DNA of 64,000 bases, from positions 124,001 to 188,000 of the forward strand of contig CANTAL010000148.1 of the NCBI GenBank assembly GCA_947650365.1. The letters are read 5' to 3'. The stretch is from Chamaelirium japonicum (taxonomy: Eukaryota > Streptophyta > Magnoliopsida > Liliales > Melanthiaceae). This document shows, in pieces, positions 1 to 43,010 of this stretch; the first letter of the stretch is position 1; each line of letters starts with the position of its first letter. Position numbers and translations under genes: made by a program. The notes under the pieces were generated by a model. The model made no database searches. It was given only the letters and a program-made list of their open reading frames with translations, and was not told the DNA's origin.

Positions 1-3000
1 TGAATTAGAATGGATTGTGCGAATGAATTAGAATGGATTGTGCGAATGAATTAGAATGGATCGTACGAATGAATTAGAATGGATCGTGCGAATGAATTAG
101 AATGGATCGTACGAATGAATTAGAATGGATTGTGCGAATGAATTAGAATGGATCGTAGGAATGAATTACAATGGATCGTACGAATGAATTAGAATGGTTA
201 CATTCGTGCGAATGAATTAGAATGGATCGTACGAATGGATTAGAATGGATCATACGAATGGTTTAGAATGGATCGTACGAATGAATTAGAATGGATCGTA
301 CAAATGAATTAGAAAGGTTACATTTGTGAGAATGAATTAGAGTGGATTGTACGAATGAATTAGAATGGATCGTACGAATGGATTAGAATGGATCGTACGA
401 GTGGATTAAAATGGATCGTACGAATGAATTAGAATGGATCATACAAATGAATTAGAAAGGTTACATTCGTGAGAATGAATTAGAATGGATCGTACGAATG
501 AATTAGAATGGATCGTATGAATAAATTAGAATGGATCGTACGAATGAATTAGAATGGATACATTTGTGCGAATGATTTATAATGGATCGTACGAAAGAAT
601 TTGAATGGATCGTTCGAATGAATTAGAATGGATCGTAATGGATTAGAATGGATCGTACGAATGAATTAGAATGGATCGTACAAATGAATTAGAATGGTTA
701 CATTCGTGCGAATGAATTAGAATGGATCGTACGAATGAATTAAAATGGATACATTCATACGACTGAATTAGAATGGATCGTACGAATGAATTAGAATGGA
801 TCGTACGAATGAATTAGAATGGATCATAGGAATGAATTAGAATGGATCGTACAAATGAATTAGAATAAATCGTGCAAATGAATTAGAATGGATCGTACGA
901 ACGAATTAGAATGGATCATACGAACGAATTAGAATGGATCATATGAATGAGTTAGAATGGATCGTACGAATAGATTAGAATGGATCGTACGAATGGATCA
1001 TACGAATGAATTAGAATGGATCGTACAAATGAATTAAAATGGATCGTACGAATGAATTAGAATGGATACATTCGTGCGAATGAATTAGAATGGATTGTAC
1101 GAATGAATTAGAACGGATTGTGCGCATGAATTAGAATGGATTGTATGAATGAATAAGAATGGATCGTACGAATGAATTAGAATGGATACATTCGAGTGAA
1201 TGAATTAGAATAGATTAGAATGGATCGTACGATTTAATTGGAATGGATCGTACGAATGAATTAGAATGGATCGTACAAATGAATTAGAATGGATCGTACG
1301 AATGAATTAGAATGGATCGTACGAATAGATTAGAACGCATTGTACGAATGAATTAGAATGGATCGTACGAATGGATTAGAATGGATCGTATGAATGAATT
1401 AGAATGGATCGTACGAATGAATTAGAATGGATACATTCGAGCGAATGAATTAGAATGGGTCGTACGAATGAATTAGAATGGATCATAGGAATGAATTAGA
1501 ATGGATCATGCAAATGAATTAGAATAGATACATTCGTGCGAATGAATTAGAATGGATCGTAGGAATGAATTAGAATGGATCATAGGAATGAATTAGAATG
1601 GTTACATTCGAACGAATGAATTAGAATGGATCGTACGAATGGATTAGAATAGATCGTACGAATTAGAATGGCTCGTACGAATGAATTAAAATGGATACAT
1701 TGATACGACTGAATTAGAATGGATCGTGCGAAATAATTAGAATTGATCGTTCGAATGAATTTGAATGGATACATTTGTGCGAATGAATCTGAATGGATTG
1801 TACGAATGAATTAGAATGGATCGTATGAATGAATTAGAATGGATACATTCGAGCGAATGAATTAGAATGGATCGTACGAATGAGTTAGAATGGATCATAG
1901 GAATGAATTAGAATGGATCGTGCAAATGAATTAGAATGGATCGTATGAATGAATTAGAATGGATAATACGAATGAATTAGAATAGATACATTTATGCGAA
2001 TGAATTAGAATGGATACATTTATGCGAATGAATTAGAATGGATACACTCGTGCGAATGAATTAGAATGGATCGTACGAATGAATTAGAATGGATCATAGG
2101 AATGAATTAGAATAGATCGTGCAAATGAATTAGAATGGATACATTCGTGCGAATGAAATATAATGGATCGTAGGAATGAATTAGAATGGATCGTACGAAT
2201 GAATTAGAATGGTTACATTCGTGCGAATGAATTAGAATGGATCGTAGGAATGAATTAGAATGGATCGTACGAATGAATTAGAATGGTTACATTCGTGCGA
2301 ATAAATTAGCATGGATCGTACGAATGAATTAGAATGAATCGTACGAATGAATTAGAATGGATCGTGCGAATGAATTTGAATGGATCGTACGAATGAGTTA
2401 GAATGGATACATTCGTGTGAATGAATATGAATGGATTCTACGAATGAATTAGAATGGATCGTGCGAATGAATTAGAATAGATCATATGAATAAATTAAAA
2501 TGGATACATTTGTACGAATAAATTAGAATGGATTGTACGAATGAATTAGAATGTATACATTCTTGCGAATAAATTAGAATGGATCGTATATTCGTGCAAA
2601 TAAATTAGAATGGATCATACGAATGAATTAGAATGGATCATGCGAATGAATTAGAATGAATCGTACGAAGGCATTAGAATGGATCGTACGAATGAATTAG
2701 AATGAATCGTACGATCCATTCTAATTCACTCATCCGATCTATTCTAATTCATTCGCACGAATGTATCCATTCTAATTCATTCGTACAATCCATTCTAATT
2801 CATTCGCACGATCCATTCTAATTCATTCGTATGATCCATTCTAATTCATTCCTACGATCTATTCTAATTCATTCGGTCGAATGTATCCATTCTAATTCAT
2901 TCGTTCGATCCATTCTAATTCATTCGTACGATCCATTCAAATTCATTCGCATGATCCATTCTAATTCATTCGTACGATCCATTCTAATTCATTCTCACGA

Positions 3001-4470
3001 ATGTAACCTTTCTAATTCATTTGTATGATCCATTCTAATTCATTCGTACGATCCATTCTAATCCATTCGTACGATCCATTCTAATCCATTCGTACGATCC
3101 ATTCTAATTCATTCTCATAAATGTAACCTTTCTAATTCATTTGTACGATCCATTCTAATCCATTCGTACGATCCATTCTAATTCATTCGCACGAATGTAA
3201 CCATTCTAATTCATTCATACGATCCATTCTAAATCATTCCTACGATCCATTCTAATTCATTCGCACGAATGTATCCTTTCTAATTCATTTGCACGATCCA
3301 TTCTAATTCATTCCTATGATCAATTCTAATTCATTCGTATGATCCATTCTAATTCATTCGCTCGAATGTATCCATTCAAATTCATTCGTACGATCCATTC
3401 TAATTCGTTCATACGATCCATTCTAATTCGTTCGTACGATCCATTCTAATTCATTTGTACGATCCATTCTAATCCATTCGTACGATCCATTCTAATTCAT
3501 TCGTATGATCCATTCTAATTCATTCATATGATACATTCTAATTCACTCGTATGATCCATTCTAATTCATTCGTACGAACCATTCTAATTCATTCGCTCGA
3601 ATGTATCCATTTTAATTCATTCGTACGATCCATTCTAATTCATTCTCACGAATGTAACCTTTCTAATTCATTTGTATGTATCCATTCTAATTCATTCGTA
3701 CGATCCATTCTAATTCATTCGCACGATTTATTCTAATTCATTCGTACGATCCATTCTATTTCATTCGCATGATCCATTCTAATTCATCCATATGATCTAT
3801 TCTAATTCATTCGCACGAATGAATCCATTCAAATGCATTCATACAATTCATTCTAATTCATTCGCATGATCCATTCTAATTCATTCGTACGATCCATTCT
3901 AATTCATTCATTCGATCCATCCTAATTCATTCGCACGAATGTATCCATTCTAATTCATTCGTACAATCCATTCTAATTCATTCGCACGAATGTATCCATT
4001 CTAATTCATTCGTACGATCCATTCTAATTCATTCGCACGATCCATTCTAATTCATTCGTACGATCCAGTCTAATTCATTCGTACGATCCATTCTAATTCA
4101 TTCGCACGAATGTAACCATTCTAATTCATTCGTACGATCCATTCTAATTCATTCCTACGATCCATTCTAATTCATTCGCACGAATGTATCCATTCTAATT
4201 CATTTGCACGATCCATTCTAATTCATTCCTATGATCCATTCTAATTCATTCATACGATCCATTCTAATTCATTCGCTCGAATGTATCCATTCTAATTCAT
4301 TCGTACGATCCATTCTAATTCATTCGCTCGAATGTATCCATTCTAATTCATTCATACGATCCATTCTAATTCGTTCGTACGATCCATTCTAATTCGTTCG
4401 TACGATCCATTCTAATTCATTCTCACGAATGTAACCTTTCTAATTCATTAGTACGATCCATTCTAATTAT
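1..4470. repeat. HOR-A unit A0, right-hand part (cut by window start)
   Basis: Position 1 falls inside a unit. The segment matches unit A1 at an offset of 7903 near position 151, changing to 7907 by 2831. The 4-bp difference fits length changes near 1660, where A0 has a 19-bp monomer. It is F to 2710 and R from 2711 to the junction before 4471. Variants such as AGATCGTACGAATT near 1650 and GATCATGCAAATG near 1505 are shared with unit A4 but not with A1. Confidence 0.93.
2711..4469 (-). repeat. R domain of unit A0 (full form)
   Basis: About 1.76 kb of monomers in reverse orientation. The left edge is centred on GTAC at 2710/2711; the right edge is the CTAATTAT/AAAGG junction. The first 180 bp (2711-2890) are an inverted copy, at roughly 97% by eye, of F sequence at 5864-6043. 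Near 4099-4290 there is a reverse-oriented copy of the 190-bp module. The domain recurs at 10618, 25899 and 33825. Confidence 0.93.
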
Positions 4471-5185
4471 AAAGGTTACATTCGAGCGAATGAATTAGAA
4501 TAGATCGTAGGAATGAATTAGAATGGATCATACGAATGAATTAGAATGGATCGTGCGAATGAATTAGAATGAATCGTATGAATGCATTAGAATGGATCGT
4601 ACGAATGAATTAGAATGAATCGTACGAACGAATTAGAATGGATCGTATGAACGAATTAGAATGGATCGAATGAATGAATTAGAATGGATCGTACGAATGA
4701 ATTAGAATGGATACTTTCGAGCGAATGAATTAGAATGGATTGTACGAATGAATTAGAATGGATCATAGGAATGAATTAGAATGGATCGTGCAAATGAATT
4801 AGAATGGATACATTCGTGCGAATGAATTAGAATAGATCATACGAATGAATTTGAATGGATCGTACGAATGAATTAGAATGGATCGTGCGAATGAATTAGA
4901 ATGAATCGTATGAATGAATTTGAATGGATCGTACGAATGAATACATTTGTACGAATGAATTAGAATGGATCATACGAATGAATTAAAATGGATCGTGCGA
5001 ATGAATTAGAATTGATCGTACGAATGAATTTGAATGGATTGTACGAATGAATTAGAATGGATCGTATGAATGAATTAGAATGGATCGTACGAATGGATTA
5101 GAATGGATCGTACGAATGGATCATGCGAATGAATTGGAATGGATCGTACGAATGAATTAGAATGGATCGTACGAATGAATTAGAA

Positions 5186-5371
5186 TGGATACATTCGAGC
5201 GAATGAATTAGAATGGATCGTACGAATGAATTAGAATGGATCATAGGAATGAATTAGAATGGATCGTGCAAATGAATTAGAATGGATACTTTCGTGCGAA
5301 TGAATTAGAATGGATCGTAGGAATGAATTAGAATGGATCATACGAATGAATTAGAATGGTTTCATTCGTGC
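5186..5371 (+). repeat. 190-bp module, F copy in unit A1
   Basis: A fixed order of variant monomers, named by their 3' ends: ACATTCGAGC (28-bp class), CGTAC, CATAGG, CGTGCAAATG, ATACWTTCGTGC (28-bp class), CGTAGG, then CRTAC and a GGTT-type 28-mer. The same order appears, whole or nearly so, near 1431-1620, 38284-38470, 40733-40920, 51962-52148 and 56700-56850, and reversed near 4099-4290, 42097-42250 and 43648-43800. Confidence 0.8.
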
Positions 5372-6043
5372 GAATGAATTAGAATGGATCATAGGAATGA
5401 ATTAGAATGGATCGTGCGAATGAATTAGATTGGATCGTACGAATGAATTAGAATGGATCGTACGAATGAATTAGAATGGATCGTATGAATGAATTAGAAT
5501 GGATACCTTTGTGCATATGAATTAGAATGGATCGTGCGGATGAATTAGAATGGATCATAGGAATGAATTAGAATGGATCGTACGAATGAATTAGAATGGT
5601 TACATTCGTGCGAATGAATTTGAATGGATCATACGAATGGATTAGAATGGATCGTACGAATGGATTAGAATGGATCGTGCGAATGAATTAGAATGGATAC
5701 ATTCGAGCGAATGAATTAGAATAGATCGTACGAATGAATTAGAATGGATCATAGGAATGAATTAGAATGGATCGTGCAAATGAATTAGAAAGGATACATT
5801 CGTGCGAATGAATTAGAATGGATCGTGCGAATGAATTAGAATGGATCGTACGAATGAATTAGAATGGATACATTCGAGCGAATGAATTAGAATAGATCGT
5901 AGGAATGAATTAGAATGGATCATACGAATGAATTAGAATGGATCGTGCGAATGAATTAGAATGGATTATACGAATGAATTAGAATAGATACATTCGTGCG
6001 AATGAATTAGAATGGATCGGACGAATGAATTAGAATGGATCGT

Positions 6044-7006
6044 ACGATTCATTCTAATTCATTCATACGATCCATTCTAATGGATTCGTACGATTCATTC
6101 TAATTAGAATGCATTGTACGAATGAATTAGAATGGATCGTACGAATGGATTGGAATGGATCGTACGAATGAATTAGAATGCATTGTACGAATGAATTAGA
6201 ATAGATACATTTGTGCGAATGAATTAGATTGCATCGTACGAATGAATTTGAATGGATTGTACGAATGAATTAGAATGGATCGTACGAATGAATTAGAATG
6301 GATCATGCGAATGAATTAGAATAGATCGTACGAATTAATTAGAATGGATCGTGCGAACGAATTAGAATGGATCGTATGAACGAATTAGAATGGATCGTAC
6401 GAATGATTTAGAATGGATCGTACAAATGAATTAGAAAGGTTACATTTGTGAGAATGGATTAGAACGCATTGTACGAATGAATTAGAATGGATCGTACGAA
6501 CGAATTAGAATGGATCGTATGAACGAATTAGAATGGATCGTACGAATGAATTAGAATGGATACATTCGAGCGAATGAATTAGAATGGATCGTACGAATGA
6601 ATTAGAATGGATCATAGGAATGAATAAGAATGGATCGTACGAATGGATTAGAACGCATTGTATGAATGAATTAGAATGGATCGTACGAATGAATTAGAAT
6701 GGTTACATTCGTGCGAATGAATTAGAATGGATCGTACGAATGAATTTGAATGGATTTCGTGCGAATGAATTAGAATGGATCGTACGAATGAATTAGAATG
6801 GATCGTACGATTCATTCTAATTCATTCGTACGATCCATTCTAATGCATTCATGCGAATGAATTAGAAAGGATTGTACGAATGAATTAGAATGGATCGTGC
6901 GAATGAATTAGAATTGATCATACGAATGAATTAGAATGGATCGTACGATCCATTCTAATTCATTCGCACGATCCATTCTAATTCATTCGTACGATCCAAT
7001 ATAATT
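6044..7006. repeat. Cluster of three reverse islets in unit A1
   Basis: Reverse monomers interrupt the F array at 6044-6103, 6807-6851 and 6945-7006. The first begins on a GTAC centre and ends in the 16-bp palindrome CATTCTAATTAGAATG (6096-6111). The second begins with the same ACGATTCATTCTAATTC as the first. The third begins at the centre of a 44-bp palindrome and ends in the degenerate CCAATATAATTTGCG. The first islet is an inverted copy of F sequence at 2651-2710. Confidence 0.9.
6923..6966. repeat. 44-bp perfect palindrome (unit A1)
   Basis: One F monomer meets one R monomer exactly at GT/AC (6944/6945). Each arm is 22 bp, from CGAATGAATTAGAATGG outward, with no spacer. Beyond the arms pairing continues with mismatches. 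It could extrude as a cruciform; that is inference. Confidence 0.92.
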
Positions 7007-10000
7007 TGCGAATGAATTAGAATGGATCGTAGGAATGAATTAGAATGGATCGTACGAATGAATTAGAATGGTTACATTCGTGCGAATGAATTAGAATGGG
7101 TCGTACGAATGGATTAGAATGGATCGTACGAATGGATTAGAATGGATCGTACGAATGAATTAGAATGGATCGTACAAATGAATTAGAAAGGTTACATTTG
7201 TGAGAATGAATTAGAATGGATCGTACGAATGGATTAGAATGGATCGTATGAATGGATTAGAATGGATCATACAAATGAATTAGAAAGGTTACATTCGTGA
7301 GAATGAATTAGAATGGATCGTACAAATGAGTTAGAATGGATCGTACGAATAAATAAGAATGGATCGTACGAATGGATTAGAATGGATCGTACGAATGGAT
7401 TAGAATGGATCGTACGAATGAATTAGAATGGATCGTACAAATGAATTAGAAATGTTACATTTGTGAGAATGAATTACAATGGATCGTACGAATGAATTAG
7501 AATGGATCGTACGAATGAATTAGAATGGATCGTACGAATGCATTAGAATGGATACATTCATGCGAATGAATTAGAATGGATCGTACGAATGAATTAGAAT
7601 GGATCGTGCGAATGGATTAGAATGGATCGTACAAATGAATTAGAATGGATCGTGCGAATGAATTAGAATGGATCGTACGAATGATTTAGAATGGTTACAT
7701 TCGTGCGAATGAATTAGAATGGATCGTACGAATGGATTAGAAAGGATCGTACGAATGGATTAGAATGGATCGTAGGAATGAATTAGAATGGATCGTACAA
7801 ATGAATTAGAAAGGTTACATTTGTGAGAATGAATTAGAATGGATCGTACGAATGAATTAGAATGGATCGTACGAATGGATTAGAATGGATCGTACAAATG
7901 AATTAAAATGGATCGTACGAATGCATTAGAATGGATACATTCGTGCGAATGAATTAGAATGGATCGTACGAATGAATTAGAATGGATCGTGCGAATGAAT
8001 TAGAATGGATCGTACGAATGAATTAGAATGGATTGTGCGAATGAATTAGAATGGATCGTAGGAATGAATTACAATGGATCGTACGAATGAATTAGAATGG
8101 TTACATTCGTGCGAATGAATTAGAATGGATCGTACGAATGGATTAGAATGGATCATACGAATGGTTTAGAATGGATCGTACGAATGAATTAGAATGGATC
8201 GTACAAATGAATTAGAAAGGTTACATTTGTGAGAATGAATTAGAGTGGATCGTACGAATGAATTAGAATGGATCGTACGAATGGATTAGAATGGATCGTA
8301 CGAGTGGATTAGAATGGATCGTACGAATAAATTAGAATGGATCATACAAATGAATTAGAAAGGTTACATTCGTGAGAATGAATTAGAATGGATCGTACGA
8401 ATGAATTAGAATGGATCGTATGAATAAATTAGAATGGATCGTACGAATGAATTAGAATGGATACATTTGTGCGAATGATTTATAATGGATCGTACGAAAG
8501 AATTTGAATGGATCGTTCGAATGAATTAGAATGGATCGTAATGGATTCGAATGGATCGTACGAATGAATTAGAATGGATCGTACAAATGAATTAGAATGG
8601 TTACATTCGTGCGAATGAATTAGAATGGATCGTACGAATGAATTAAAATGGATACATTCATACGACTGAATTAGAATGGATCGTACGAATGAATTAGAAT
8701 GGATCGTACGAATGAATTAGAATGGATCATAGGAATGAATTAGAATGGATCGTACAAATGAATTAGAATAAATCGTGCAAATGAATTAGAATGGATCGTA
8801 CGAACGAATTAGAATGGATCATACGAACGAATTAGAATGGATCATATGAATGAGTTAGAATGGATCGTACGAATAGATTAGAATGGATCGTACGAATGGA
8901 TCATACGAATGAATTAGAATGGATCGTACAAATGAATTAAAATGGATCGTACGAATGAATTAGAATGGATACATTCGTGCGAATGAATTAGAATGGATTG
9001 TACGAATGAATTAGAACGGATTGTGCGCATGAATTAGAATGGATCGTATGAATGAATAAGAATGGATCGTACGAATGAATTAGAATGGATACATTCGAGC
9101 GAATGAATTAGAATAGATTAGAATGGATCGTACGATTGAATTGGAATGGATCGTACGAATGAATTAGAATGGATCGTACAAATGAATTAGAATGGATCGT
9201 ACGAATGAATTAGAATGGATCGTACGAATAGATTAGAACGCATTGTACGAATGAATTAGAATGGATCGTACGAATGGATTAGAATGGATCGTATGAATGA
9301 ATTAGAATGGATCGTACGAATGAATTAGAATGGATACATTCGAGCGAATGAATTAGAATGGGTCGTACGAATGAATTAGAATGGATAATAGGAATGAATT
9401 AGAATGGATCGTGCAAATGAATTAGAATAGATACATTCGTGCGAATGAATTAGAATGGATCGTAGGAATGAATTAGAATGGATCGTAGGAATGAATTAGA
9501 ATGGTTACATTCGAACGAATGAATTAGAACGGATCGTACGAATGGATTAGAATGGATCGTACGAATGCATTAGAATGGATCATACGAATGAATTAAAATG
9601 GATACATTGATACGACTGAATTAGAATGGATCGTGCGAAATAATTAGAATTGATCGTTCGAATGAATTTGAATGGATACATTTGTGCGAATGAATCTGAA
9701 TGGATTGTACGAATGAATTAGAATGGATCGTATGAATGAATTAGAATGGATACATTCGAGCGAATGAATTAGAATGGATCGTACGAATGAGTTAGAATGG
9801 ATCATAGGAATGAATTAGAATGGATCGTGCAAATGAATTAGAATGGATCGTATGAATGAATTAGAATGGATAATACGAATGAATTAGAATAGATACATTT
9901 ATGCGAATGAATTAGAATGGATACATTTATGCGAATGAATTAGAATGGATACACTCGTGCGAATGAATTAGAATGGATCGTACGAATGAATTAGAATGGA

Positions 10001-10617
10001 TCATAGGAATGAATTAGAATAGATCGTGCAAATGAATTAGAATGGATACATTCGTGCGAATGAAATATAATGGATCGTAGGAATGAATTAGAATGGATCG
10101 TACGAATGAATTAGAATGGTTACATTCGTGCGAATGAATTAGAATGGATCGTAGGAATGAATTAGAATGGATCGTACGAATGAATTAGAATGGTTACATT
10201 CGTGCGAATAAATTAGCATGGATCGTACGAATGAATTAGAATGAATCGTACGAATGAATTAGAATGGATCGTGCGAATGAATTTGAATGGATCGTACGAA
10301 TGAGTTAGAATGGATACATTCGTGTGAATGAATTTGAATGGATTCTACGAATGAATTAGAATGGATCGTGCGAATGAATTAGAATGGATCGTATGAATAA
10401 ACTAAAATGGATACATTTGTACGAATAAATTAGAATGGATTGTACGAATGAATTAGAATGTATACATTCTTGCGAATAAATTAGAATGGATCGTATATTC
10501 GTGCAAATAAATTAGAATGGATCATACGAATGAATTAGAATGGATCGTGCGAATGAATTAGAATGAATCGTACGAAGGCATTAGAATGGATCGTACGAAT
10601 GAATTAGAAGGAATCGT

Positions 10618-12376
10618 ACGATCCATTCTAATTCATTCATCCGATCTATTCTAATTCATTCGCACGAATGTATCCATTCTAATTCATTCGTACAATCCAT
10701 TCTAATTCATTCGCACGATCCATTCTAATTCATTCGTATGATCCATTCTAATTCATTCCTACGATCTATTCTAATTCATTCGGTCGAATGTATCCATTCT
10801 AATTCATTCGTTCGATCCATTCTAATTCATTCGTACGATCCATTCAAATTCATTCGCATGATCCATTCTAATTCATTCGTACGATCCATTCTAATTCATT
10901 CTCACGAATGTAACCTTTCTAATTCATTTGTATGATCCATTCTAATTCATTCGTACGATCCATTCTAATCCATTCGTACGATCCATTCTAATCCATTCGT
11001 ACGATCCATTCTAATTCATTCTCATAAATGTAACCTTTCTAATTCATTTGTACGATCCATTCTAATCCATTCGTACGATCCATTCTAATTCATTCGCACG
11101 AATGTAACCATTCTAATTCATTCATACGATCCATTCTAAATCATTCCTACGATCCATTCTAATTCATTCGCACGAATGTATCCTTTCTAATTCATTTGCA
11201 CGATCCATTCTAATTCATTCCTATGATCCATTCTAATTCATTCGTATGATCCATTCTAATTCATTCGCTCGAATGTATCCATTCAAATTCATTCGTACGA
11301 TCCATTCTAATTCGTTCATACGATCCATTCTAATTCGTTCGTACGATCCATTCTAATTCATTTGTACGATCCATTCTAATCCATTCGTACGATCCATTCT
11401 AATTCATTCGTATGATCCATTCTAATTCATTCATATGATACATTCTAATTCACTCGTATGATCCATTCTAATTCATTCGTACGAACCATTCTAATTCATT
11501 CGCTCGAATGTATCCATTTTAATTCATTCGTACGATCCATTCTAATTCATTCTCACGAATGTAACCTTTCTAATTCATTTGTATGTATCCATTCTAATTC
11601 ATTCGTACGATCCATTCTAATTCATTCGCACGATTTATTCTAATTCATTCGTACGATCCATTCTATTTCATTCGCATGATCCATTCTAATTCATCCATAT
11701 GATCTATTCTAATTCATTCGCACGAATGTATCCATTCAAATGCATTCATACAATTCATTCTAATTCATTCGCATGATCCATTCTAATTCATTCGTACGAT
11801 CCATTCTAATTCATTCATTCGATCCATCCTAATTCATTCGCACGAATGTATCCATTCTAATTCATTCGTACAATCCATTCTAATTCATTCGCACGAATGT
11901 ATCCATTCTAATTCATTCGTACGATCCATTCTAATTCATTCGCACGATCCATTCTAATTTATTCGTACGATCCAGTCTAATTCATTCGTACGATCCATTC
12001 TAATTCATTCGCACGAATGTAACCATTCTAATTCATTCGTACGATCCATTCTAATTCATTCCTACGATCCATTCTAATTCATTCGCACGAATGTATCCAT
12101 TCTAATTCATTTGCACGATCCATTCTAATTCATTCCTATGATCCATTCTAATTCATTCATACGATCCATTCTAATTCATTCGCTCGAATGTATCCATTCT
12201 AATTCATTCGTACGATCCATTCTAATTCATTCGCTCGAATGTATCCATTCTAATTCATTCATACGATCCATTCTAATTCGTTCGTACGATCCATTCTAAT
12301 TCGTTCGTACGATCCATTCTAATTCATTCTCACGAATGTAACCTTTCTAATTCATTAGTACGATCCATTCTAATTA
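10618..12376 (-). repeat. R domain of unit A1 (full form)
   Basis: Offset of 7907 from the A0 domain with only scattered substitutions visible; the reverse module lies near 12006-12197. The left edge GAATCGT/ACGATCC is centred at 10617/10618. Confidence 0.93.
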
Positions 12377-13950
12377 TAAAGGTTACATTCGAGCGAATGA
12401 ATTAGAATAGATCGTAGGAATGAATTAGAATGGATCATACGAATGAATTAGAATGGATCGTGCGAATGAATTAGAATGAATCGTATGAATGCATTAGAAT
12501 GGATCGTACGAATGAATTAGAATGAATCGTACGAACGAATTAGAATGGATCGTATGAACGAATTAGAATGGATCGTATGAATGAATTAGAATGGATCGTA
12601 CGAATGAATTAGAATGGATACTTTCGAGCGAATGAATTAGAATGGATTATACGAATGAATTAGAATGGATCATAGGAATGAATTAGAATGGATCGTGCAA
12701 ATGAATTAGAATGGATACATTCGTGCGAATGAATTAGAATAGATCATACGAATGAATTTGAATGGATCGTACGAATGAATTAGAATGGATCGTGCGAATG
12801 AATTAGAATGAATCGTATGAATGAATTTGAATGGATCGTACGAATGAATACATTTGTACGAATGAATTAGAATGGATCATACGAATGAATTAGAATGGAT
12901 CGTGCGAATGAATTAGAATTGATCGTACGAATGAATTTGAATGGATTGTACGAACGAATTAGAATGGATCGTATGAATGAATTAGAATGGATCGTACGAA
13001 TGGATTAGAATGGATCGTACGAATGGATCATGCGAATGAATTGGAATGGATCGTACGAATGAATTAGAATGGATCGTACGAATGAATTAGAATGGATACA
13101 TTCGAGCGAATGAATTAGAAAGGATCGTACGAATGAATTAGAATGGATCATAGGAATGAATTAGAATGGATCGTGCAAATGAATTAGAATGGATACTTTC
13201 GTGCGAATGAATTAGAATGGATCGTAGGAATGAATTAGAATGGATCATACGAATGAATTAGAATGGTTTCATTCGTGCGAATGAATTAGAATGGATCATA
13301 GGAATGAATTAGAATGGATCGTGCGAATGAATTAGATTGGATCGTACGAATGAATTAGAATGGATCGTACGAATGAATTAGAATGGATCGTATGAATGAA
13401 TTAGAATGGATACCTTTGTGCATATGAATTAGAATGGATCGTGCGGATGAATTAGAATGGATCATAGGAATGAATTAGAATGGATCGTACGAATGAATTA
13501 GAATGGTTACATTCGTGCGAATGAATTTGAATGGATCATACGAATGGATTAGAATGGATCGTACGAATGGATTAGAATGGATCGTGCGAATGAATTAGAA
13601 TGGATACATTCGAGCGAATGAATTAGAATAGATCGTACGAATGAATTAGAATGGATCATAGGAATGAATTAGAATGGATCGTGCAAATGAATTAGAATGG
13701 ATACATTCGTGCGAATGAATTAGAATGGATCGTGCGAATGAATTAGAATGGATCGTACGAATGAATTAGAATGGATACATTCGAGCGAATGAATTAGAAT
13801 AGATCGTAGGAATGAATTAGAATGGATCATACGAATGAATTAGAATGGATCGTGCGAATGAATTAGAATGGATTATACGAATGAATTAGAATAGATACAT
13901 TCGTGCGAATGAATTAGAATGGATCGGACGAATGAATTAGAATGGATCGT

Positions 13951-14936
13951 ACGATTCATTCTAATTCATTCATACGATCCATTCTAATGGATTCGTACGA
14001 TTCATTCTAATTAGAATGCATTGTACGAATGAATTAGAATGGATCGTACGAATGGATTAGAATGGATCATACGAATGGATTGGAATGGATCGTACGAATG
14101 AATTAGAATGCATTGTACGAATGAATTAGAATAGATACATTTGTGCGAATGAATTAGATTGCATCGTACGAATGAATTTGAATGGATTGTACGAATGAAT
14201 TAGAATGGATCGTACGAATGAATTAGAATGGATCATGCGAATGAATTAGAATAGATCGTACGAATTAATTAGAATGGATCGTGCGAACGAATTAGAATGG
14301 ATCGTATGAACGAATTAGAATGGATCGTACGAATGATTTAGAATGGATCGTACAAATGAATTAGAAAGGTTACATTTGTGAGAATGGATTAGAACGCATT
14401 GTACGAATGAATTAGAATGGATCGTACGAACGAATTAGAATGGATCGTATGAACGAATTAGAATGGATCGTACGAATGAATTAGAATGGATACATTCGAG
14501 CGAATGAATTAGAATGGATCGTACGAATGAATTAGAATGGATCATAGGAATGAATAAGAATGGATCGTACGAATGGATTAGAACGCATTGTATGAATGAA
14601 TTAGAATGGATCGTACGAATGAATTAGACTGGTTACATTCGTGCGAATGAATTAGAATGGATCGTACAAATGAATTTGAATGGATTTCGTGCGAATGAAT
14701 TAGACTGGATCGTACGAATGAATTAGAATGGATCGTACGATTCATTCTAATTCATTCGTACGTTCCATTCTAATGCATTCGTGCGAATGAATTAGAAAGG
14801 ATTGTATGCATGAATTAGAATGGATCGTGCGAATGAATTAGAATTGATCATACGAATGAATTAGAATGGATCGTACGATCCATTCTAATTCATTCGCACG
14901 ATCCATTCTAATTCATTCGTACGATCCAATATAATT
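13951..14936. repeat. Cluster of three reverse islets in unit A2
   Basis: Islets at 13951-14010, 14737-14781 and 14875-14936. The CATTCTAATTAGAATG palindrome is at 14003-14018. The first islet is offset 7907 from A1 and the later two 7930, because A2 has one extra 23-bp monomer after the first. Confidence 0.9.
14853..14896. repeat. 44-bp perfect palindrome (unit A2)
   Basis: Same palindrome as in A1, centre 14874/14875, both arms intact. Confidence 0.92.
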
Positions 14937-17764
14937 TGCGAATAAATTAGAATGGATCGTAGGAATGAATTAGAATGGATCGTACGAATGAATTAGAATG
15001 GTTACATTCGTGCGAATGAATTAGAATGGGTCGTACGAATGGATTAGAATGGATCGTACGAATGGATTAGAATGGATCGTACGAATGAATTAGAATGGAT
15101 CGTACAAATGAATTAGAAAGGTTACATTTGTGAGAATGAATTAGAATGGATCGTACGAATGGATTAGAATGGATCGTATGAATGGATTAGAATGGATCAT
15201 ACAAATGAATTAGAAAGGTTACATTCGTGAGAATGAATTAGAATGGATCGTACAAATGAGTTAGAATGGATCGTACGAATAAATAAGAATGGATCGTACG
15301 AATGGATTAGAATGGATCGTACGAATGGATTAGAATGGATCATACGAATGAATTAGAATAGATCGTACAAATGAATTAGAAATGTTACATTTGTGAGAAT
15401 GAATTAGAATGGATCGTACGAATGAATTAGAATGGATCGTACGAATGAATTAGAATGGATCGTACGAATGCATTAGAATGGATACATTCATGCGAATGAA
15501 TTAGAATGGATCGTACGAATGAATTAGAATGGATCGTGAGAATGGATTAGAATGGATCGTACAAATGAATTAGAATGGATCGTGCGAATGAATTAGAATG
15601 GATCGTACGAATGATTTAGAATGGTTACATTCGTGCGAATGAATTAGAATGGATCGTACGAATGGATTAGAAAGGATCGTACGAATGGATTAGAATGGAT
15701 CGTAGGAATGAATTAGAATGGATCGTACAAATGAATTAGAAAGGTTACATTTGTGAGAATGAATTAGAATGGATCGTACGAATGAATTAGAATGGATCGT
15801 ACGAATGGATTAGAATGGATCATACAAATGAATTAAAATGGATCATACGAATGCATTAGAATGGATACATTCGTGCGAATGAATTAGAATGGATCGTACG
15901 AATGAATTAGAATGGATCGTGCGAATGAATTAGAATGGATCGTACGAATGAATTAGAATGGATTGTGCGAATGAATTAGAATGGATCGTAGGACTGAATT
16001 ACAATGGATCGTACGAATGAATTAGAATGGTTACATTCGTGCGAATGAATTAGAATGGATCGTACGAATGGATTAGAATGGATCATACGAATGGTTTAGA
16101 ATGGATCGTACGAATGAATTAGAATGGATCGTACAAATGAATTAGAAAGGTTACATTTGTGAGAAAGAATTAGAGTGGATCGTACGAATGAATTAGAATG
16201 GATCGTACGAATGGATTAGAATGGATCGTACGAGTGGATTAGAATGGATCGTACGAATGAATTAGAATGGATCATACAAATGAATTAGAAAGGTTACATT
16301 CGTGAGAATGAATTAGAATGGATCGTACGAATGAATTAGAATGGATCGTATGAATAAATTAGAATGGATCGTACGAATGAATTAGAATGGATACATTTGT
16401 GCGAATGATTTATAATGGATCGTACGAAAGAATTTGAATGGATCGTTCGAATGAATTAGAATGGATCGTAATGGATTAGAATGGATCGTACGAATGAATT
16501 AGAATGGATCGTACAAATGAATTAGAATGGTTACATTCGTGCGAATGAATTAGAATGGATCGTACGAATGAATTAAAATGGATACATTCATACGACTGAA
16601 TTAGAATGGATCGTACGAATGAATTAGAATGGATCGTACGAATGAATTAGAATGGATCATAGGAATGAATTAGAATGGATCGTACAAATGAATTAGAATA
16701 AATCGTGCAAATAAATTAGAATGGATCGTACGAACGAATTAGAATGGATCATACGAACGAATTAGAATGGATCATATGAATGAGTTAGAATGGATCGTAC
16801 GAATAGATTAGAATGGATCGTACGAATGGATCATACGAATGAATTAGAATGGATCGTACAAATGAATTAAAATGGATCGTACGAATGAATTAGAATGGAT
16901 ACATTCGTGCGAATGAATTAGAATGGATTGTACGAATGAATTAGAACGGATTGTGCGCATGAATTAGAATGGATCGTATGAATGAATAAGAATGGTTCGT
17001 ACGAATGAATTAGAATGGATACATTCGAGCGAATGAATTAGAATAGATTAGAATGGATCGTACGATTGAATTGGAATGGATCGTACGAATGAATTAGAAT
17101 GGATCGTACAAATGAATTAGAATGGATCGTACGAATGAATTAGAATGGATCGTACGAATAGATTAGAACGCATTGTACGAATGAATTAGAATGGATCGTA
17201 CGAATGGATTAGAATGGATCGTATGAATGAATTAGAATGGATCGTACGAATGAATTAGAATGGATACATTCGAGCGAATGAATTAGAATGGGTCGTACGA
17301 ATGAATTAGAATGGATCATAGGAATGAATTAGAATGGATCGTGCAAATGAATTAGAATAGATACATTCGTGCGAATGAATTAGAATGGATCGTAGGAATG
17401 AATTAGAATGGATCGTAGGAATGAATTAGAATGGTTACATTCGAACGAATGAATTAGAATGGATCGTACGAATGGATTAGAATGGATCGTACGAATGCAT
17501 TAGAATGGATCGTACGAATTAGAATGGATCGTACGAATGAATTAAAATGGATACATTGATACGACTGAATTAGAATGGATCGTGCGAAATAATTAGAATT
17601 GATCGTTCGAATGAATTTGAATGGATACATTTGTGCGAATGAATCTGAATGGATTGTACGAATGAATTAGAATGGATCGTATGAATGAATTAGAATGGAT
17701 ACATTCGAGCGAATGAATTAGAATGGATCGTACGAATGAGTTAGAATGGATCATAGGAATGAAT

Positions 17765-18308
17765 ATGATTCATTCAAATTCATTCGCACGATCCATTCTA
17801 ATTCATTCCGACGATCTATTCTAATTCATTCGCTCGAATGTATCCATTCTAATTCATCCGTTCGATCCATTCTAAATCATTCGTACGATCCATTCTAAAT
17901 CATTCGTACGATCCATTCAAATTCATTCGCATGATCCATTCTAATTTATTCGTACGATCCATTCTAATTCATTCTCACGAACATAACCTTTCTAATTCAT
18001 TTGTATGATCCATTCTAATTCATTCGTACGATCCATTCTAATTCATTCGCATGAATCTGTTATAATTCATTCGTACGATTCATTCTAATTCATTCGCACG
18101 ATCCATTCAAATTCATTTGCACGATCCATTCTAATTCATTCCTATGATCCATTCTAATTCGTTCGTATGATCCATTCTAATTTATTCGCTCGAATGTATC
18201 CATTCTAATTCATTCGTACGATCCATTCTAATTCATTCGTACGATCCATTCTAATTCATTCTCACGAATGTAACCTTTCTAATTCATTAGTACGATCCAT
18301 TCTAATTA
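17765..18308 (-). repeat. Short, reorganised R domain of unit A2
   Basis: This is 0.54 kb of reverse monomers ending at the same right junction as the full domains. It resembles the start of the full R domain (near 2805 onward) but with many more differences than the F parts show between units, for example an added TCTAAATCATTCG monomer near 17870-17905 and GAATCTGTTATAATTC near 18053. It therefore looks like a separate R lineage rather than a plain deletion of the 1.76-kb domain. Confidence 0.85.
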
Positions 18309-19882
18309 TAAAGGTTACATTCGAGCGAATGAATTAGAATAGATCGTAGGAATGAATTAGAATGGATCATATGAATGAATTAGAATGGTTCGTGCGAATG
18401 AATTAGAATGAATCGTATGAATGCATTAGAATGGATCGTACGAATGAATTAGAATGAATCGTACGAACGAATTAGAATGGATCGTATGAACGAATTAGAA
18501 TGGATCGTATGAATGAATTAGAATGGATCGTATGAATGAATTAGAATGGATACTTTCGAGCGAATGAATTAGAATGGATTGTACGAATGAATTAGAATAG
18601 ATCATAGGAATGAATTAGAATGGATCGTGCAAATGAATTAGAATGGATACATTCGTGCGAATGAATTAGAATAGATCATACGAATGAATTTGAATGGATC
18701 GTACGAATGAATTAGAATGGATCGTGCGAATGAATTAGAATGAATGGTATGAATGAATTTGAATGGATCGTACGAATGAATACATTTGTACGAATGAATT
18801 AGAATGGATCATACGAATGAATTAGAATGGATCGTGCGAATGAATTAGAATTGATCGTACGAATGAATTTGAATGGATTGTACGAACGAATTAGAATGGA
18901 TCGTATGAATGAATTAGAATGGATCGTACGAATGGATTAGAATGGATCGTACGAATGGATCATGCGAATGAATTGGAATGGATCGTACGAATGAATTAGA
19001 ATGGATCGTACGAATGAATTAGAATGGATACATTCGAGCGAATGAATTAGAATGGATCGTACGAATGAATTAGAATGGATCATAGGAATGAATTAGAATG
19101 GATCGTGCAAATGAATTAGAATGGATACTTTCGTGCGAATGAATTAGAATGGATCGTAGGAATGAATTAGAATGGATCATACGAATGAATTAGAATGGTT
19201 TCATTCGTGCGAATGAATTAGAATGGATCATAGGAATGAATTAGAATGGATCGTGCGAATGAATTAGATTGGATCGTACGAATGAATTAGAATGGATCGT
19301 ACGAATGAATTAGAATGGATCGTATAAATGAATTAGAATGGATACCTTTGTGCATATGAATTAGAATGGATCGTGCGGAAGAATTAGAATGGATCATAGG
19401 AATGAATTAGACTGGATCGTACGAATGAATTAGATTGGTTACATTCGTGCGAATGAATTTGAATGGATCATACGAATGGATTAGAATGGATCATACGAAT
19501 GGATTAGAATGGATCGTGCGAATAAATTAGAATGGATACATTCGAGCGAATGAATTAGAATAGATCGTACGAATGAATTAGAATGGATCATAGGAATGAA
19601 TTAGAATGGATCGTGCAAATGAATTAGAATGGATACATTCGTGCGAATGAATTAGAATGGATCGTGCGAATGAATTAGAATGGATCGTACGAATGAATTA
19701 GAATGGATACATTCGAGCGAATGAATTAGAATAGATCGTAGGAATGAATTAGAATGGATCATACGAATGAATTAGAATGGATCGTGCGAATGAATTAGAA
19801 TGGATTATACGAATGAATTAGAATAGATACATTCGTGCGAATGAATTAGAATGGATCGGACGAATGAATTAGAATGGATCGT

Positions 19883-20868
19883 ACGATTCATTCTAATTCA
19901 TTCATACGATCCATTCTAATGGATTCGTACGATTCATTCTAATTAGAATGCATTGTACGAATGAATTAGAATGGATCGTACGAATGGATTAGAATGGATC
20001 GTACGAATGGATTGGAATGGATCGTACGAATGAATTAGAATGCATTGTACGAATGAATTAGAATAGATACATTTGTGCGAATGAATTAGATTGCATCGTA
20101 CGAATGAATTTGAATGGATTGTACGAATGAATTAGAATGGATCGTACGAATGAATTAGAATGGATCATGCGAATGAATTAGAATAGATCGTACGAATTAA
20201 TTAGAATGGATCGTGCGAACGAATTAGAATGGATCGTATGAACGAATTAGAATGGATCGTACGAATGATTTAGAATGGATCGTACAAATGAATTAGAAAG
20301 GTTACATTTGTGAGAATGGATTAGAACGCATTGTACGAATGAATTAGAATGGATCGTACGAACGAATTAGAATGGATCGTATGAACGAATTAGAATGGAT
20401 CGTACGAATGAATTAGAATGGATACATTCGAGCGAATGAATTAGAATGGATCGTACGAATGAATTAGAATGGATCATAGGAATGAATAAGATGGGATCGT
20501 ACGAATGGATTAGAACGCATTGTATGAATGAATTAGAATGGATCGTACGAATGAATTAGAATGGTTACATTCGTGCGAATGAATTAGAATGGATCGTACG
20601 AATGAATTTGAATGGATTTCGTGCGAATGAATTAGACTGGATCGTACGAATGTATTAGAATGGATCGTACGATTCATTCTAATTCATTCGTACGATCCAT
20701 TCTAATGCATTCGTGCGAATGAATTAGAAAGGATTGTACGAATGAATTAGAATGGATCGTGCGAATGAATTAGAATTGATCATACGAATGAATTAGAATG
20801 GATCGTACGATCCATTCTAATTCATTCGCACGATCCATTCTAATTCATTCGTACGATCCAATATAATT
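19883..20868. repeat. Cluster of three reverse islets in unit A3
   Basis: Islets at 19883-19942, 20669-20713 and 20807-20868, offset 5932 from A2. The CATTCTAATTAGAATG palindrome is at 19935-19950. Confidence 0.9.
20785..20828. repeat. 44-bp perfect palindrome (unit A3)
   Basis: Same palindrome, centre 20806/20807, both arms intact. Confidence 0.92.
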
Positions 20869-23695
20869 TGCGAATGAATTAGAATGGATCGTAGGAATGA
20901 ATTAGAATGGATCGTACGAATGAATTAGAATGGTTACATTCGTGCGAATGAATTAGAATGGGTCGTACGAATGGATTAGAATGGATCGTACGAATGGATT
21001 AGAATGGATCGTACGAATGAATTAGAATGGATCGTACAAATGAATTAGAAAGGTTACATTTGTGAGAATGAATTAGAATGGATCGTACGAATGGATTAGA
21101 ATGGATCGTATGAATGGATTAGAATGGATCATACAAATGAATTAGAAAGGTTACATTCGTGAGAATGAATTAGAATGGATCGTACAAATGAGTTAGAATG
21201 GATCATACGAATAAATAAGAATGGATCGTACGAATGGATTAGAATGGATCGTACGAATGGATTAGAATGGATCGTACGAATGAATTAGAATGGATCGTAC
21301 AAATGAATTAGAAATGTTACATTTGTGAGAATGAATTACAATGGATCGTACGAATGAATTAGAATGGATCGTACGAATGAATTAGAATGGATCGTACAAA
21401 TGCATTAGAATGGATACATTCATGCGAATGAATTAGAATGGATCGTACGAATGAATTAGAATGGATCGTGCGAATGGATTAGAATGGATCGTACAAATGA
21501 ATTAGAATGGATCGTGCGAATGAATTAGAATGGATCGTACGAATGATTTAGAATGGTTACATTCGTGCGAATGAATTAGAATGGATCGTACGAATGGATT
21601 AGAAAGGATCGTACGAATGGATTAGAATGGATCGTAGGAATGAATTAGAATGGATCGTACAAATGAATTAGAAAGGTTACATTTGTGAGAATGAATTAGA
21701 ATGGATCGTACGAATGAATTAGAATGGATCGTACGAATGGATTAGAATGGATCGTACAAATGAATTAAAATGGATCGTACGAATGCATAGAATGGATACA
21801 TTCGTGCGAATGAATTAGAATGGATCGTACGAATGAATTAGAATGGATCGTGCGAATGAATTAGAATGGATCGTACGAATGAATTAGAATGGATTGTGCG
21901 AATGAATTAGAATGGATCGTAGGAATGAATTACAATGGATCGTACGAATGAACTAGAATGGTTACATTCGTGCGAATGAATTAGAATGGATCGTACGAAT
22001 GGATTAGAATGGATCATACGAATGGTTTAGAATGGATCGTACGAATGAATTAGAATGGATCGTACAAATGAATTAGAAAGGTTATATTTGTGAGAATGAA
22101 TTAGAGTGGATCGTACGAATGAATTAGAATGGATCGTACGAATGGATTAGAATGGATCGTACGAGTGGATTAGAATGAATCGTACGAATGAATTAGAATG
22201 GATCATACAAATGAATTAGAAAGGTTACATTCGTGAGAATGAATTAGAATGGATCGTACGAATGAATTAGAATGGATCGTATGAATAAATTAGAATGGAT
22301 CGTACGAATGAATTAGAATGGATACATTTGTGCGAATGATTTATAATGGATCGTACGAAAGAATTTGAATGGATCGTTCGAATGAATTAGAATGGATCGT
22401 AATGGATTAGAATGGATCGTACGAATGAATTAGAATGGATCGTACAAATGAATTAGAATGGTTACATTCGTGCGAATGAATTAGAATGGATCGTACGAAT
22501 GAATTAAAATGGATACATTCATACGACTGAATTAGAATGGATCGTACGAATGAATTAGAATGGATCGTACGAATGAATTAGAATGGATCATAGGAATGAA
22601 TTAGAATGGATCGTACAAATGAATTAGAATAAATCGTGCAAATAAATTAGAATGGATCGTACGAACGAATTAGAATGGATCATACGAACGAATTAGAATG
22701 GATCATATGAATGAGTTAGAATGGATCGTACGAATAGATTAGAATGGATCGTACGAATGGATCATACGAATGAATTAGAATGGATCGTACAAATGAATTA
22801 AAATGGATCGTACGAATGAATTAGAATGGATACATTCGTGCGAATGAATTAGAATGGATTGTACGAATGAATTAGAACGGATTGTGCGCATGAATTAGAA
22901 TGGATCGTATGAATGAATAAGAATGGTTCGTACGAATGAATTAGAATGGATACATTCGAGCGAATGAATTAGAATAGATTAGAATGGATCGTACGATTGA
23001 ATTGGAATGGATCGTACGAATGAATTAGAATGGATCGTACAAATGAATTAGAATGGATCGTACGAATGAATTAGAATGGATCGTACGAATAGATTAGAAC
23101 GCATTGTACGAATGAATTAGAATGGATCGTACGAATGGATTAGAATGGATCGTATGAATGAATTAGAATGGATCGTACGAATGAATTAGAATGGATACAT
23201 TCGAGCGAATGAATTAGAATGGGTCGTACGAATGAATTAGAATGGATCATAGGAATGAATTAGAATGGATCGTGCAAATGAATTAGAATAGATACATTCG
23301 TGCGAATGAATTAGAATGGATCGTAGGAATGAATTAGAATGGATCGTAGGAATGAATTAGAATGGTTACATTCGAACGAATGAATTAGAATGGATCGTAC
23401 GAATGGATTAGAATGGATCGTACGAATGCATTAGAATGGATCGTACGAATTAGAATGGATCGTACGAATGAATTAAAATGGATTCATTGATACGACTGAA
23501 TTAGAATGGATCGTGCGAAATAATTAGAATTGATCGTTCGAATGAATTTGAATGGATACATTTGTGCGAATGAATCTGAATGGATTGTACGAATGAATTA
23601 GAATGGATCGTATGAATGAATTAGAATGGATACATTCGAGCGAATGAATTAGAATGGATCGTACGAATGAGTTAGAATGGATCATAGGAATGAAT

Positions 23696-24239
23696 ATGAT
23701 TCATTCAAATTCATTCGCACGATCCATTCTAATTCATTCCGACGATCTATTCTAATTCATTCGCTCGAATGTATCCATTCTAATTCATCCGTTCGATCCA
23801 TTCTAAATCATTCGTACGATCCATTCTAAATCATTCGTACGATCCATTCAAATTCATTCGCATGATCCATTCTAATTTATTCGTACGATCCATTCTAATT
23901 CATTCTCACGAACATAACCTTTCTAATTCATTTGTATGATCCATTCTAATTCATTCGTACGATCCATTCTAATTCATTCGCATGAATCTGTTATAATTCA
24001 TTCGTACGATTCATTCTAATTCATTCGCACGATCCATTCAAATTCATTTGCACGATCCATTCTAATTCATTCCTATGATCCATTCTAATTCGTTCGTATG
24101 ATCCATTCTAATTCATTCGCTCGAATGTATCCATTCTAATTCATTCGTACGATCCATTCTAATTCATTCGTACGATCCATTCTAATTCATTCTCACGAAT
24201 GTAACCTTTCTAATTCATTAGTACGATCCATTCTAATTA
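23696..24239 (-). repeat. Short, reorganised R domain of unit A3
   Basis: Matches the A2 short R domain with very few differences (for example TTCATTCGCTC near 24112 against TTTATTCGCTC near 18181). The entry junction GAATGAATATGATTC is the same at 17761 and 23692, so the two share one breakpoint. Confidence 0.88.
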
Positions 24240-24240
24240 T

Positions 24241-27200: not shown

Positions 27201-27658
27201 TACGATCCATTCTAATTCATTCGCACGATCCATTCTAATTCATTCGTACGATCCAGTCTAATTCATTCGTACGATCCATTCTAATTCATTCGCACGAATG
27301 TAACCATTCTAATTCATTCGTACGATCCATTCTAATTCATTCCTACGATCCATTCTAATTCATTCGCACGAATGTATCCATTCTAATTCATTTGCACGAT
27401 CCATTCTAATTCATTCCTATGATCCATTCTAATTCATTCATACGATCCATTCTAATTCATTTGCTCGAATGTATCCATTCTAATTCATTCGTACGATCCA
27501 TTCTAATTCATTCGCTCGAATGTATCCATTCTAATTCATTCATACGATCCATTCTAATTCGTTCGTACGATCCATTCTAATTCGTTCGTACGATCCATTC
27601 TAATTCATTCTCACGAATGTAACCTTTCTAATTCATTAGTACGATCCATTCTAATTAT
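24241..27658. repeat. HOR-A unit A4, internally deleted fusion unit (3418 bp)
   Basis: About the first 200 bp match the start of A3, with its CATATGAATG and GGTTCGTGCG variants. Near 24440 the sequence jumps to what lies about 4.7 kb into the unit, just before the GAATAGATTAGAACGC marker (24511 here, 9226 in A1). The remaining 3.15 kb is the full-form right end, including the whole R domain. Relative to A3 about 4.5 kb is missing from the F part. The breakpoint lies in canonical monomers, as expected for unequal exchange. The right part shares private variants with A0, which lies 23188 bp upstream. Confidence 0.9.
25899..27657 (-). repeat. R domain of unit A4 (full form)
   Basis: Full 1.76-kb R domain, offset 15281 from A1 and 23188 from A0. 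The central GTAC of its left edge is changed (AATCGAACGATCC near 25893). The reverse module lies near 27287-27478. Confidence 0.92.
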
Positions 27659-29231: not shown

Positions 29232-30217
29232 ACGATTCATTCTAATTCATTCATACGATCCATTCTAATGGATTCGTACGATTCATTCTAATTAGAATGC
29301 ATTGTACGAATGAATTAGAATGGATCGTACGAATGGATTAGAATGGATCGTACGAATGGATTGGAATGGATCGTACGAATGAATTAGAATGCATTGTACG
29401 AATGAATTAGAATAGATACATTTGTGCGAATGAATTAGATTGCATCGTACGAATGAATTTGAATGGATTGTACGAATGAATTAGAATGGATCGTACGAAT
29501 GAATTAGAATGGATCATGCGAATGAATTAGAATAGATCGTACGAATTAATTAGAATGGATCGTGCGAACGAATTAGAATGGATCGTATGAACGAATTAGA
29601 ATGGATCGTACGAATGATTTAGAATGGATCGTACAAATGAATTAGAAAGGTTACATTTGTGAGAATGGATTAGAACGCATTGTACGAATGAATTAGAATG
29701 GATCGTACGAACGAATTAGAATGGATCGTATGAACGAATTAGAATGGATCGTACGAATGAATTAGAATGGATACATTCGAGCGAATGAATTAGAATGGAT
29801 CGTACGAATGAATTAGAATGGATCATAGGAATGAATAAGAATGGATCGTACGAATGGATTAGAACGCATTGTATGAATGAATTAGAATGGATCGTACGAA
29901 TGAATTAGAATGGTTACATTCGTGCGAATGAATTAGAATGGATCGTACCAATGAATTTGAATGGATTTCGTGCGAATGAATTAGAATGGATCGTACGAAT
30001 GAATTAGAATGGATCGTACGATTCATTCTAATTCATTCGTACGATCCATTCTAATGCATTCGTGCGAATGAATTAGAAAGGATTGTACGAATGAATTAGA
30101 ATGGATCGTGCGAATGAATTAGAATTGATCATACGAATGAATTAGAATGGATCGTACGATCCATTCTAATTCATTCGCACGATCCATTCTAATTCATTCG
30201 TACGATCCAATATAATT
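29232..30217. repeat. Cluster of three reverse islets in unit A5
   Basis: Islets at 29232-29291, 30018-30062 and 30156-30217, with the CATTCTAATTAGAATG palindrome at 29284-29299. Unit A4 has no such cluster because its deletion removed the region. Confidence 0.9.
30134..30177. repeat. 44-bp perfect palindrome (unit A5)
   Basis: Same palindrome, centre 30155/30156, both arms intact. Confidence 0.92.
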
Positions 30218-42960: not shown

Positions 42961-43010
42961 CATTCGTACGATCCATTCTAATCCATTCGTACGATCCATT
43001 CTAATCCATT

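Follow-up and report, generated by a model that had tools for sequence, protein, structure and literature searches.

We examined two oppositely oriented junctions in the centromeric satellite of Chamaelirium japonicum, termed A (near position 2710) and B (near position 6044), at which the tandem repeat changes from the forward (F) to the reverse (R) direction. Both lie in a 64,000-base stretch of DNA, hereafter the window, which represents positions 124001-188000 of contig C160 in an assembly of 1,518,659,071 bases and 3,253 contigs. With a probability of roughly 0.7, A and B are two members of an old, genome-wide family of F-to-R junctions that would have formed at a short dyad inside the satellite monomer, been dispersed by the exchange of blocks and been amplified locally.

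The entire window is a tandem repeat built from a 23-bp unit with 28-bp units interspersed, and it falls into about 97 direction blocks of widely unequal length. Monomer lengths were read on the first 10.6 kb, where the commonest 23-mers and 28-mers include TTAGAATGGATCGTACGAATGAA and TTAGAATGGATACATTCGTGCGAATGAA and where the main 23-mer and 28-mer are a 5-bp gap and one substitution apart. Judged by this description of its monomers, the repeat is almost certainly Chio, the centromeric satellite of the holocentric Chionographis japonica (Chamaelirium japonicum in NCBI, taxid 119999), whose forms Chio1 and Chio2 were reported as 23- and 28-bp monomers separated by 5 bp and one substitution (PMC10264360). 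Inside the monomer lies an 8-bp dyad, TCGTACGA. The R blocks contain TTCGTACGAT, and thus the 9-bp word TTCGTACGA that has been given for Chio (PMC12722358) is found here too.

Three copies of one junction in the window

The features on which the comparison rests are the following.

1..64000, no strand: Chio1/Chio2 satellite of 23-bp and 28-bp units, about 97 blocks with alternating direction
2635..2950, plus strand: junction copy A, with an F arm, a switch centred on CGTACG near 2710 and an R arm; 231/240 to the reverse complement of 5864-6103
5804..6103, minus strand: junction copy B, opposite to A, with an F arm, a switch near 6044 and a short R arm (about 60 bp)
52204..52459, minus strand: junction copy C, in B-like orientation, its R arm running on beyond 60 bp; 242/256 to A 2635-2890

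The preliminary description of this stretch had pointed out that 2651-2890 is nearly the reverse complement of 5864-6103, with about six mismatches in the 180-bp arm. An ungapped comparison bore this out, with 231 of 240 positions identical, of which 57 (of 60) fall in the F arm and 174 (of 180) in the R arm. The match extends further, to 2950 in A and 5804 in B (288/300 against the reverse complement of 5804-6103), and ends at 2651, which corresponds to the R-to-F back-switch of copy B at 6103. A third version, placed by the same description at about 52310-52450 with an R arm matching 2635-2710, proved to be real but wider. It spans 52204-52459, with 226/240 identical positions to A over 52204-52443 and 75/76 over the arm at 2635-2710. 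The R arm of A carries the marker CATCCGATC at 2731, which reads GATCGGATG on the other strand. The shorter marker GATCGGAYG, proposed as a shared sign of the copies, is indeed present in A and B, but it also occurs, counting both strands, at six sites beyond them (38605, 39719, 58184, 59102, 60311 and 60736), and copy C has GATTGGACG in its place. A, B and C are therefore distinguished by the junction and both arms together, not by any single marker.

To set these matches against their background, we compared A with the 48 F-to-R junctions of the window. Outside the A/B/C group, the best junction reached 205/240 without gaps (39517) and 0.865 with gaps (55102), such that random F/R junction pairs equally alike over 240 bp, the outcome that the preliminary description had named as speaking against it, did not appear for this junction. 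Because identity amounts to 288/300 across both arms and the best unrelated junction stays at 205/240, A, B and C go back to a common ancestral junction, and in this respect the earlier proposal of a single ancestor holds. Identity alone was dropped as proof, since among 150 random 240-bp windows 19 had an inverted match of at least 226 within the window and 11 one of at least 231, some of which may overlap the A and B copies. Opposite copies were also seen for two further junction families, 53453 paired with 55102 (228/240; 53394-53633 and 54917-55156), and 44190, 46341, 48469 and 50620 paired with 51678 (226-227/240; 44130-50740 and 51499-51738). Because these families and the random windows behave likewise, opposite copies are a habit of Chio and not peculiar to the A/B pair.

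A genome-wide junction family

We searched the genome with a 117-bp pattern, comprising 60 bp of the F arm and 57 bp of the R arm, at up to 3 mismatches. The B form of the pattern matched 829 times on the plus strand and 731 times on the minus strand, and the commoner family form 2,332 and 2,160 times, respectively, about 4,492 matches; copies with more than 3 mismatches escape this count. The same junction patterns read backwards had no matches in the genome. Of the twelve largest contigs, at least nine contain members of the family (C2-C7 and C10-C12 among the matches listed), as do many smaller ones. Contig C12 measures 69.9 Mb and C14 3.3 Mb, to be compared with the 12 chromosome scaffolds expected for C. 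japonica. A 48-mer count (12,636 on the plus and 12,532 on the minus strand at 3 mismatches) was not family-specific and was disregarded for copy number.

For a closer view, 20 copies were sampled with 10-kb stretches and 20 more with 901-bp stretches. Of the 20 longer loci, 8 contained family copies in both orientations (up to 6 mismatches) within their 10 kb, the duplicate L019 counted. Across 38 copies (703 pairs), the median pairwise identity was at least 0.95 to about 80 bp on each side, which is partly a selection effect. In the left arm, the median was 0.85 at 80-119 bp and 0.82 beyond, equal to background (0.80-0.825). In the right arm it was 0.825 at 160-199 bp, but 0.875-0.90 at 200-279 bp. 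Accordingly, the right arm is shared in part further out than the left, and several hundred base pairs are common to members of sublineages.

Two pairs of loci stood out in the sample. On C10, the pattern of family matches at L018 (near 54.28 Mb) is repeated with equal spacing about 1.61 Mb further on, at L019 (near 55.90 Mb), and would stem either from a large recent duplication or from duplication in the assembly. L016 (C6) and L026 (C72) have near-identical junction regions that enter the same non-satellite sequence, in a haplotig-like manner.

Lineages of A and B

The relationship of the copies was analyzed in a tree of 41 rows, from which L019 (with the same matches as L018), L024 and L036 (an extra switch in the arm or a long branch) and L051 (a long branch) had been dropped. 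A fell within a starred 14-row clade, starred in two trees, together with copies from C3, C4, C5, C6, C7 and unplaced contigs. Among the sampled loci, the rows closest to A outside its own repeat were L045 (C4), L037 (C3) and L044 (C4), and those closest to B were L025 (C55), L042 (C4), L035 (C3) and L023 (C53). Forcing A and B into one clade cost 33.7 log units and was rejected by the approximately unbiased (AU) test (p-AU 6.3e-6). For the 26 large-scaffold rows, chromosome labels required 16 changes and orientation 9, both being the maximum possible, and the tree showed no sign that these copies cluster by chromosome or by direction.

As far as alignments and trees can tell, A and B are thus different dispersed lineages of one ancestral junction. 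The preliminary description had assumed that the junction was copied and inverted at this very place, a claim that is not supported, given the rejected A/B clade and a family spread over the genome in about 4,492 matches.

Direction switches and the dyad of the monomer

We surveyed 264 kb of satellite, consisting of the window and the 20 longer loci. Among 361 switches, we kept the 338 whose blocks both measured at least 35 bp and whose joint was surrounded by 80 bp of sequence. Forward and reverse stretches can be offset by any of 23 phases, each expected at 1/23, and the phase was read 6-21 bp from the joint; this reading replaced a first phase rule that had left 108 of 178 R-to-F switches unassigned. 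Look-alike switches were grouped, and groups without a phase were left out of the denominators. The CGTACG phase accounted for 13/59 F-to-R groups (P 1.2e-6) and for 17/63 R-to-F groups (P 1.1e-9), and upon stricter grouping for 18/64 and 29/86, respectively. Phase 0 was seen in 6/59 F-to-R groups, and the 4-bp shared words GATC and AATT were not enriched at switches in the 264-kb sample. According to these data, direction switches are biased to the phase of the 8-bp dyad.

In the whole genome, palindromic joints were counted with perfect-palindrome 30-mers at up to 1 mismatch, which gives copies and not events. F-to-R joints numbered 21,360 for CGTACG (a figure that can include the A/B/C family), 3,591 for GATC and 90 for AATT; the R-to-F counts were 16,102, 6,229 and 1,177, respectively, where the rank of GATC and AATT is unlike that in the 264-kb sample. 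One R-to-F group, in which CGTATG...CATACG form an inverted pair separated by a short loop, has 29 members in 14 of the 21 sources (the window, at 35860, and 13 loci). On the reverse strand at 2750-2763, a 28-bp unit contains CATTCGTGCGAATG, similar to a dyad joint of the R-to-F type.

Local amplification and a private back-switch

Within the window, A and B are part of a higher-order repeat in which four copies of each are present, in agreement with the earlier statement that the junctions were amplified with a repeat named HOR-A.

1..35582, no strand: local higher-order repeat region bearing A and B, from self-comparison; copy spacing 7.9 kb, also 5.9 and 9.3 kb
6097..6110, no strand: back-switch from R to F at ATTCTAATTAGAAT, which truncates the R arm of copy B to about 60 bp
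10558..10857, plus strand: copy of A; 10558-10797 is 238/240 to A, and the whole 288/300 to the reverse complement of 13711-14010
13711..14010, minus strand: copy of B; 13771-14010 is 231/240 to A, and the whole 288/300 to the reverse complement of 10558-10857
19703..19942, minus strand: copy of B, 231/240 to A
25839..26138, plus strand: copy of A; 25839-26078 is 238/240 to A, and the whole 288/300 to the reverse complement of 28992-29291
28992..29291, minus strand: copy of B; 29052-29291 is 231/240 to A, and the whole 288/300 to the reverse complement of 25839-26138
33765..34004, plus strand: copy of A, 235/240 to A

Self-comparison matched 1078-12375 to 24281-35582 at 97.2% and 1-9815 to 7899-17764 at 93.7%. 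A 106-bp pattern across the back-switch at 6103 had, at up to 3 mismatches, 5 matches genome-wide, all on C160 and all on the plus strand, four of them inside the window and one just before it. The back-switch and the higher-order amplification are local, while the junction itself is not, and the back-switch is the only private event found. A second higher-order repeat occupies 42333-51540, with a period of about 2.13-2.15 kb, about four copies and several short F blocks within an R array.

Arms of the switches

Considering the 3.4-kb block between the two junctions as one inverted duplication proved untenable: 2710-4477 and 4478-6044 align with 1483 of 1838 columns identical, no better than unrelated Chio, for which identity has a mean of 0.823 and medians of 0.80-0.825. 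The arms flanking the switches at 2710 and 6044 are 68-77% alike. A fold-back origin was likewise rejected, as 26 dyad switch groups with 130-bp flanks gave a mean arm identity of 0.819, as compared to the background of 0.823. Because the arms of dyad switches are at background identity, there is no trace of fold-back duplication, be it during replication or in the library, although very old fold-backs may escape this arm-identity test.

Proposed origin and alternative explanations

In the scenario that we favour, oppositely directed stretches of Chio would have been joined at the 8-bp dyad, which is the same on both strands. Because the dyad reads alike in either direction, such a joint should need only a short shared word. 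Blocks bearing the junction may subsequently have been exchanged among centromere units and chromosomes in either orientation, as the distribution of the family suggests; interlocus conversion, unequal exchange and re-insertion of circles are candidate routes, all of which fit. On C160, where the opposite lineages A and B are observed 3.3 kb apart, the two would have been brought together, the private back-switch at 6103 would have shortened B, and the block would have been multiplied as a higher-order repeat. We view the junction as a structural scar and a tracer rather than as a regulatory 'switch'. A more general form of this idea, in which Chio's dyad of 8 bp serves repeatedly as a site of strand switching and a small number of ancient switches spread to most centromere units by orientation-blind interchromosomal exchange, is one that we put forward tentatively, at slightly less than even odds.

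Several points weigh against the dispersed-family scenario. The genome counts refer to copies rather than events, and haplotigs or duplicates such as L016/L026 and L018/L019 seem to inflate them. The sample is non-random, its loci having been taken from the top of a list that was ordered by similarity to copy B. Looser grouping cuts the excess of the dyad phase to 7/49 for F-to-R switches (P 0.005) and 11/48 for R-to-F switches (P 5e-6), and among the latter phase 22 is also over-represented (9/63 groups; 15/86 with strict grouping), which a simple join at the dyad cannot explain and which we suspect to be due to the 5-bp insert of the 28-bp unit. The dyad preference is, moreover, indistinguishable from plain microhomology joining, as the dyad is the longest word seen to be common to both strands; in a microhomology check, the 8-bp word common to both strands was used most, but this word is the dyad itself. 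Plain distances over +57 to +300 among the first 20 loci place the A copies second-nearest to B (12 mismatches, 5 gaps), behind L025 (10 mismatches, 3 gaps) and level with L029 and L023. Gene conversion is able to mislead both the tree and the AU test, many forks being weak, and the mechanism of dispersal is one that we infer only.

With these reservations in mind, we weighed the alternatives. The reading of the preliminary description, that A or B was duplicated and inverted within the array and then amplified with HOR-A, would account for two junctions that lie so close together, in opposite orientation within one repeat unit and 96% alike, and for the A copies being among the nearest to B over +57 to +300. 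We nevertheless consider it unlikely, given that the tree test separates A from B (p-AU 6.3e-6), that each has closer tree kin on other contigs and that the long arms are alike near the junction only, their overall 1483/1838 columns comparing with 0.80-0.83 for unrelated Chio. That A, B and C are separate joins, alike through their common dyad, would agree with the recurrence of switches at this site, yet identity of 288/300 over both arms, as opposed to at most 205/240 between A and the F-to-R junctions outside the group, makes such independent origins highly improbable.

A different possibility is that the switch owes its retention and multiplication to a role of its palindrome or hairpin in centromeric chromatin, as the authors of a study on Tribolium madens suggest for conserved inversion sites (PMC13081366). 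The roughly 4,492 matches with 3 mismatches allowed might be taken in this sense, as might the median identity of at least 0.95 to about 80 bp (in part a product of selection of the copies) and of 0.875-0.90 at 200-279 bp of the right arm. Against it, identity in the left arm has dropped to that of ordinary Chio by 80-160 bp (0.85, then 0.82), and other switch families likewise recur in several loci, as hitch-hiking predicts; a functional inversion site appears rather doubtful. Finally, the switches could stem from fold-back library molecules or from misassembly of repeats, considering that C160 is presumably unplaced and that the assembly (1,519 Mb) is larger than the published genome size of C. 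japonica, 1368 Mb (PMC10264360). Fold-backs give identical arms, however, whereas arm identity is 68-77% at 2710 and 6044 and 0.819 at dyad switches (background 0.823), and the same junction was found again on large scaffolds. An artefact is hence hardly to be expected.

Satellite and assembly context

Enrichment of CENH3 at Chio has been published, along with a primary assembly of C. japonica comprising 1,526,137,861 bp in 3,786 contigs (PMC10264360), a size close to that of the assembly used here but not equal to it. An exact 45-bp Chio dimer was counted 206,927 times on the plus and 209,338 times on the minus strand of the genome; a total of 701 Mb of Chio derived from exact 45-mers was discarded as unusable, the window being poor in exact dimers. 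An Rfam scan of the window gave no match, and a full-text literature search with six monomer pieces of 13-16 letters returned no paper.

The assembly also contains a full-length COX1 of 527 amino acids that is open under the standard code, which is the code of plant mitochondria. Among 100 COX1 matches listed, 59, on contigs C514 to C3216, tie at the best score and cover the full span of the model. Judging from these tied matches, many organelle contigs seem to have been left in the assembly.

Comparison with known systems

The array described here has much in common with Chio as published, including the 23- and 28-bp monomers, the 8-bp dyad, the mixed forward and reverse arrays and a higher-order repeat cluster (PMC10264360). 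Alternating orientation is thus already known (PMC10264360; PMC12722358). In the accessible part of the original report, mixed orientation is described without the sequence of switch points, a shared switch family or a dyad bias (PMC10264360). A literature search confined mostly to passages of open-access papers, supplements aside, turned up neither a shared switch family nor dyad-phased switches for Chio, and both look new for this satellite. In the genome paper, three candidate routes are named by which Chio may have reached about 100 centromere units, namely conversion between these units, inversions and circular DNA (PMC10264360). Chio monomers are too similar for tracing, and a direction switch with marked arms provides a recognisable tag, with which exchange of DNA among the units could be traced in published data, revealing which units took part, how recently and in which orientation. 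If the more general form of our scenario is true, these junctions would preserve a record of how Chio spread while the holocentromere was made.

Fold-back inverted duplications (Hermetz et al. 2014, PMC3907307) resemble the Chio switches in having short inverted sequences at the joint. Their arms are inverted copies, whereas the arms in Chio are at background identity. The Chama satellite of Chamaelirium luteum has the 9-bp word TTCGTACGA in common with Chio, but its arrays, unlike those of Chio, are consistently oriented (PMC12722358); therefore, this word alone does not force switching.

A parallel is found in Tribolium madens, where the inversion sites INV_1a, INV_1b and INV_2 are, like the Chio switches, thousands of near-identical sites in megabase satellite regions (PMC13081366). 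The 2044 INV_1a and 3486 INV_1b sequences lie in macro-dyad satellites and are marked by diverged subunits; macro-dyads are documented in the genus Tribolium only, according to the authors (PMC13081366). In these beetle satellites, there are mostly two subarrays that tend to symmetry, and a source element of about 110 bp (PMC13081366). Chio, in contrast, has many unequal blocks, arms that are no more alike than unrelated Chio and a switch at the dyad within a 23-bp monomer. Conservation of a switch over thousands of copies applies to Chio as well (2,332 on the plus and 2,160 on the minus strand over 117 bp), while two subarrays of near-equal length are not what is seen in about 97 unequal blocks over 64 kb. 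The Chio switch is therefore conserved like the Tribolium inversion sites, yet is not classed as that type.

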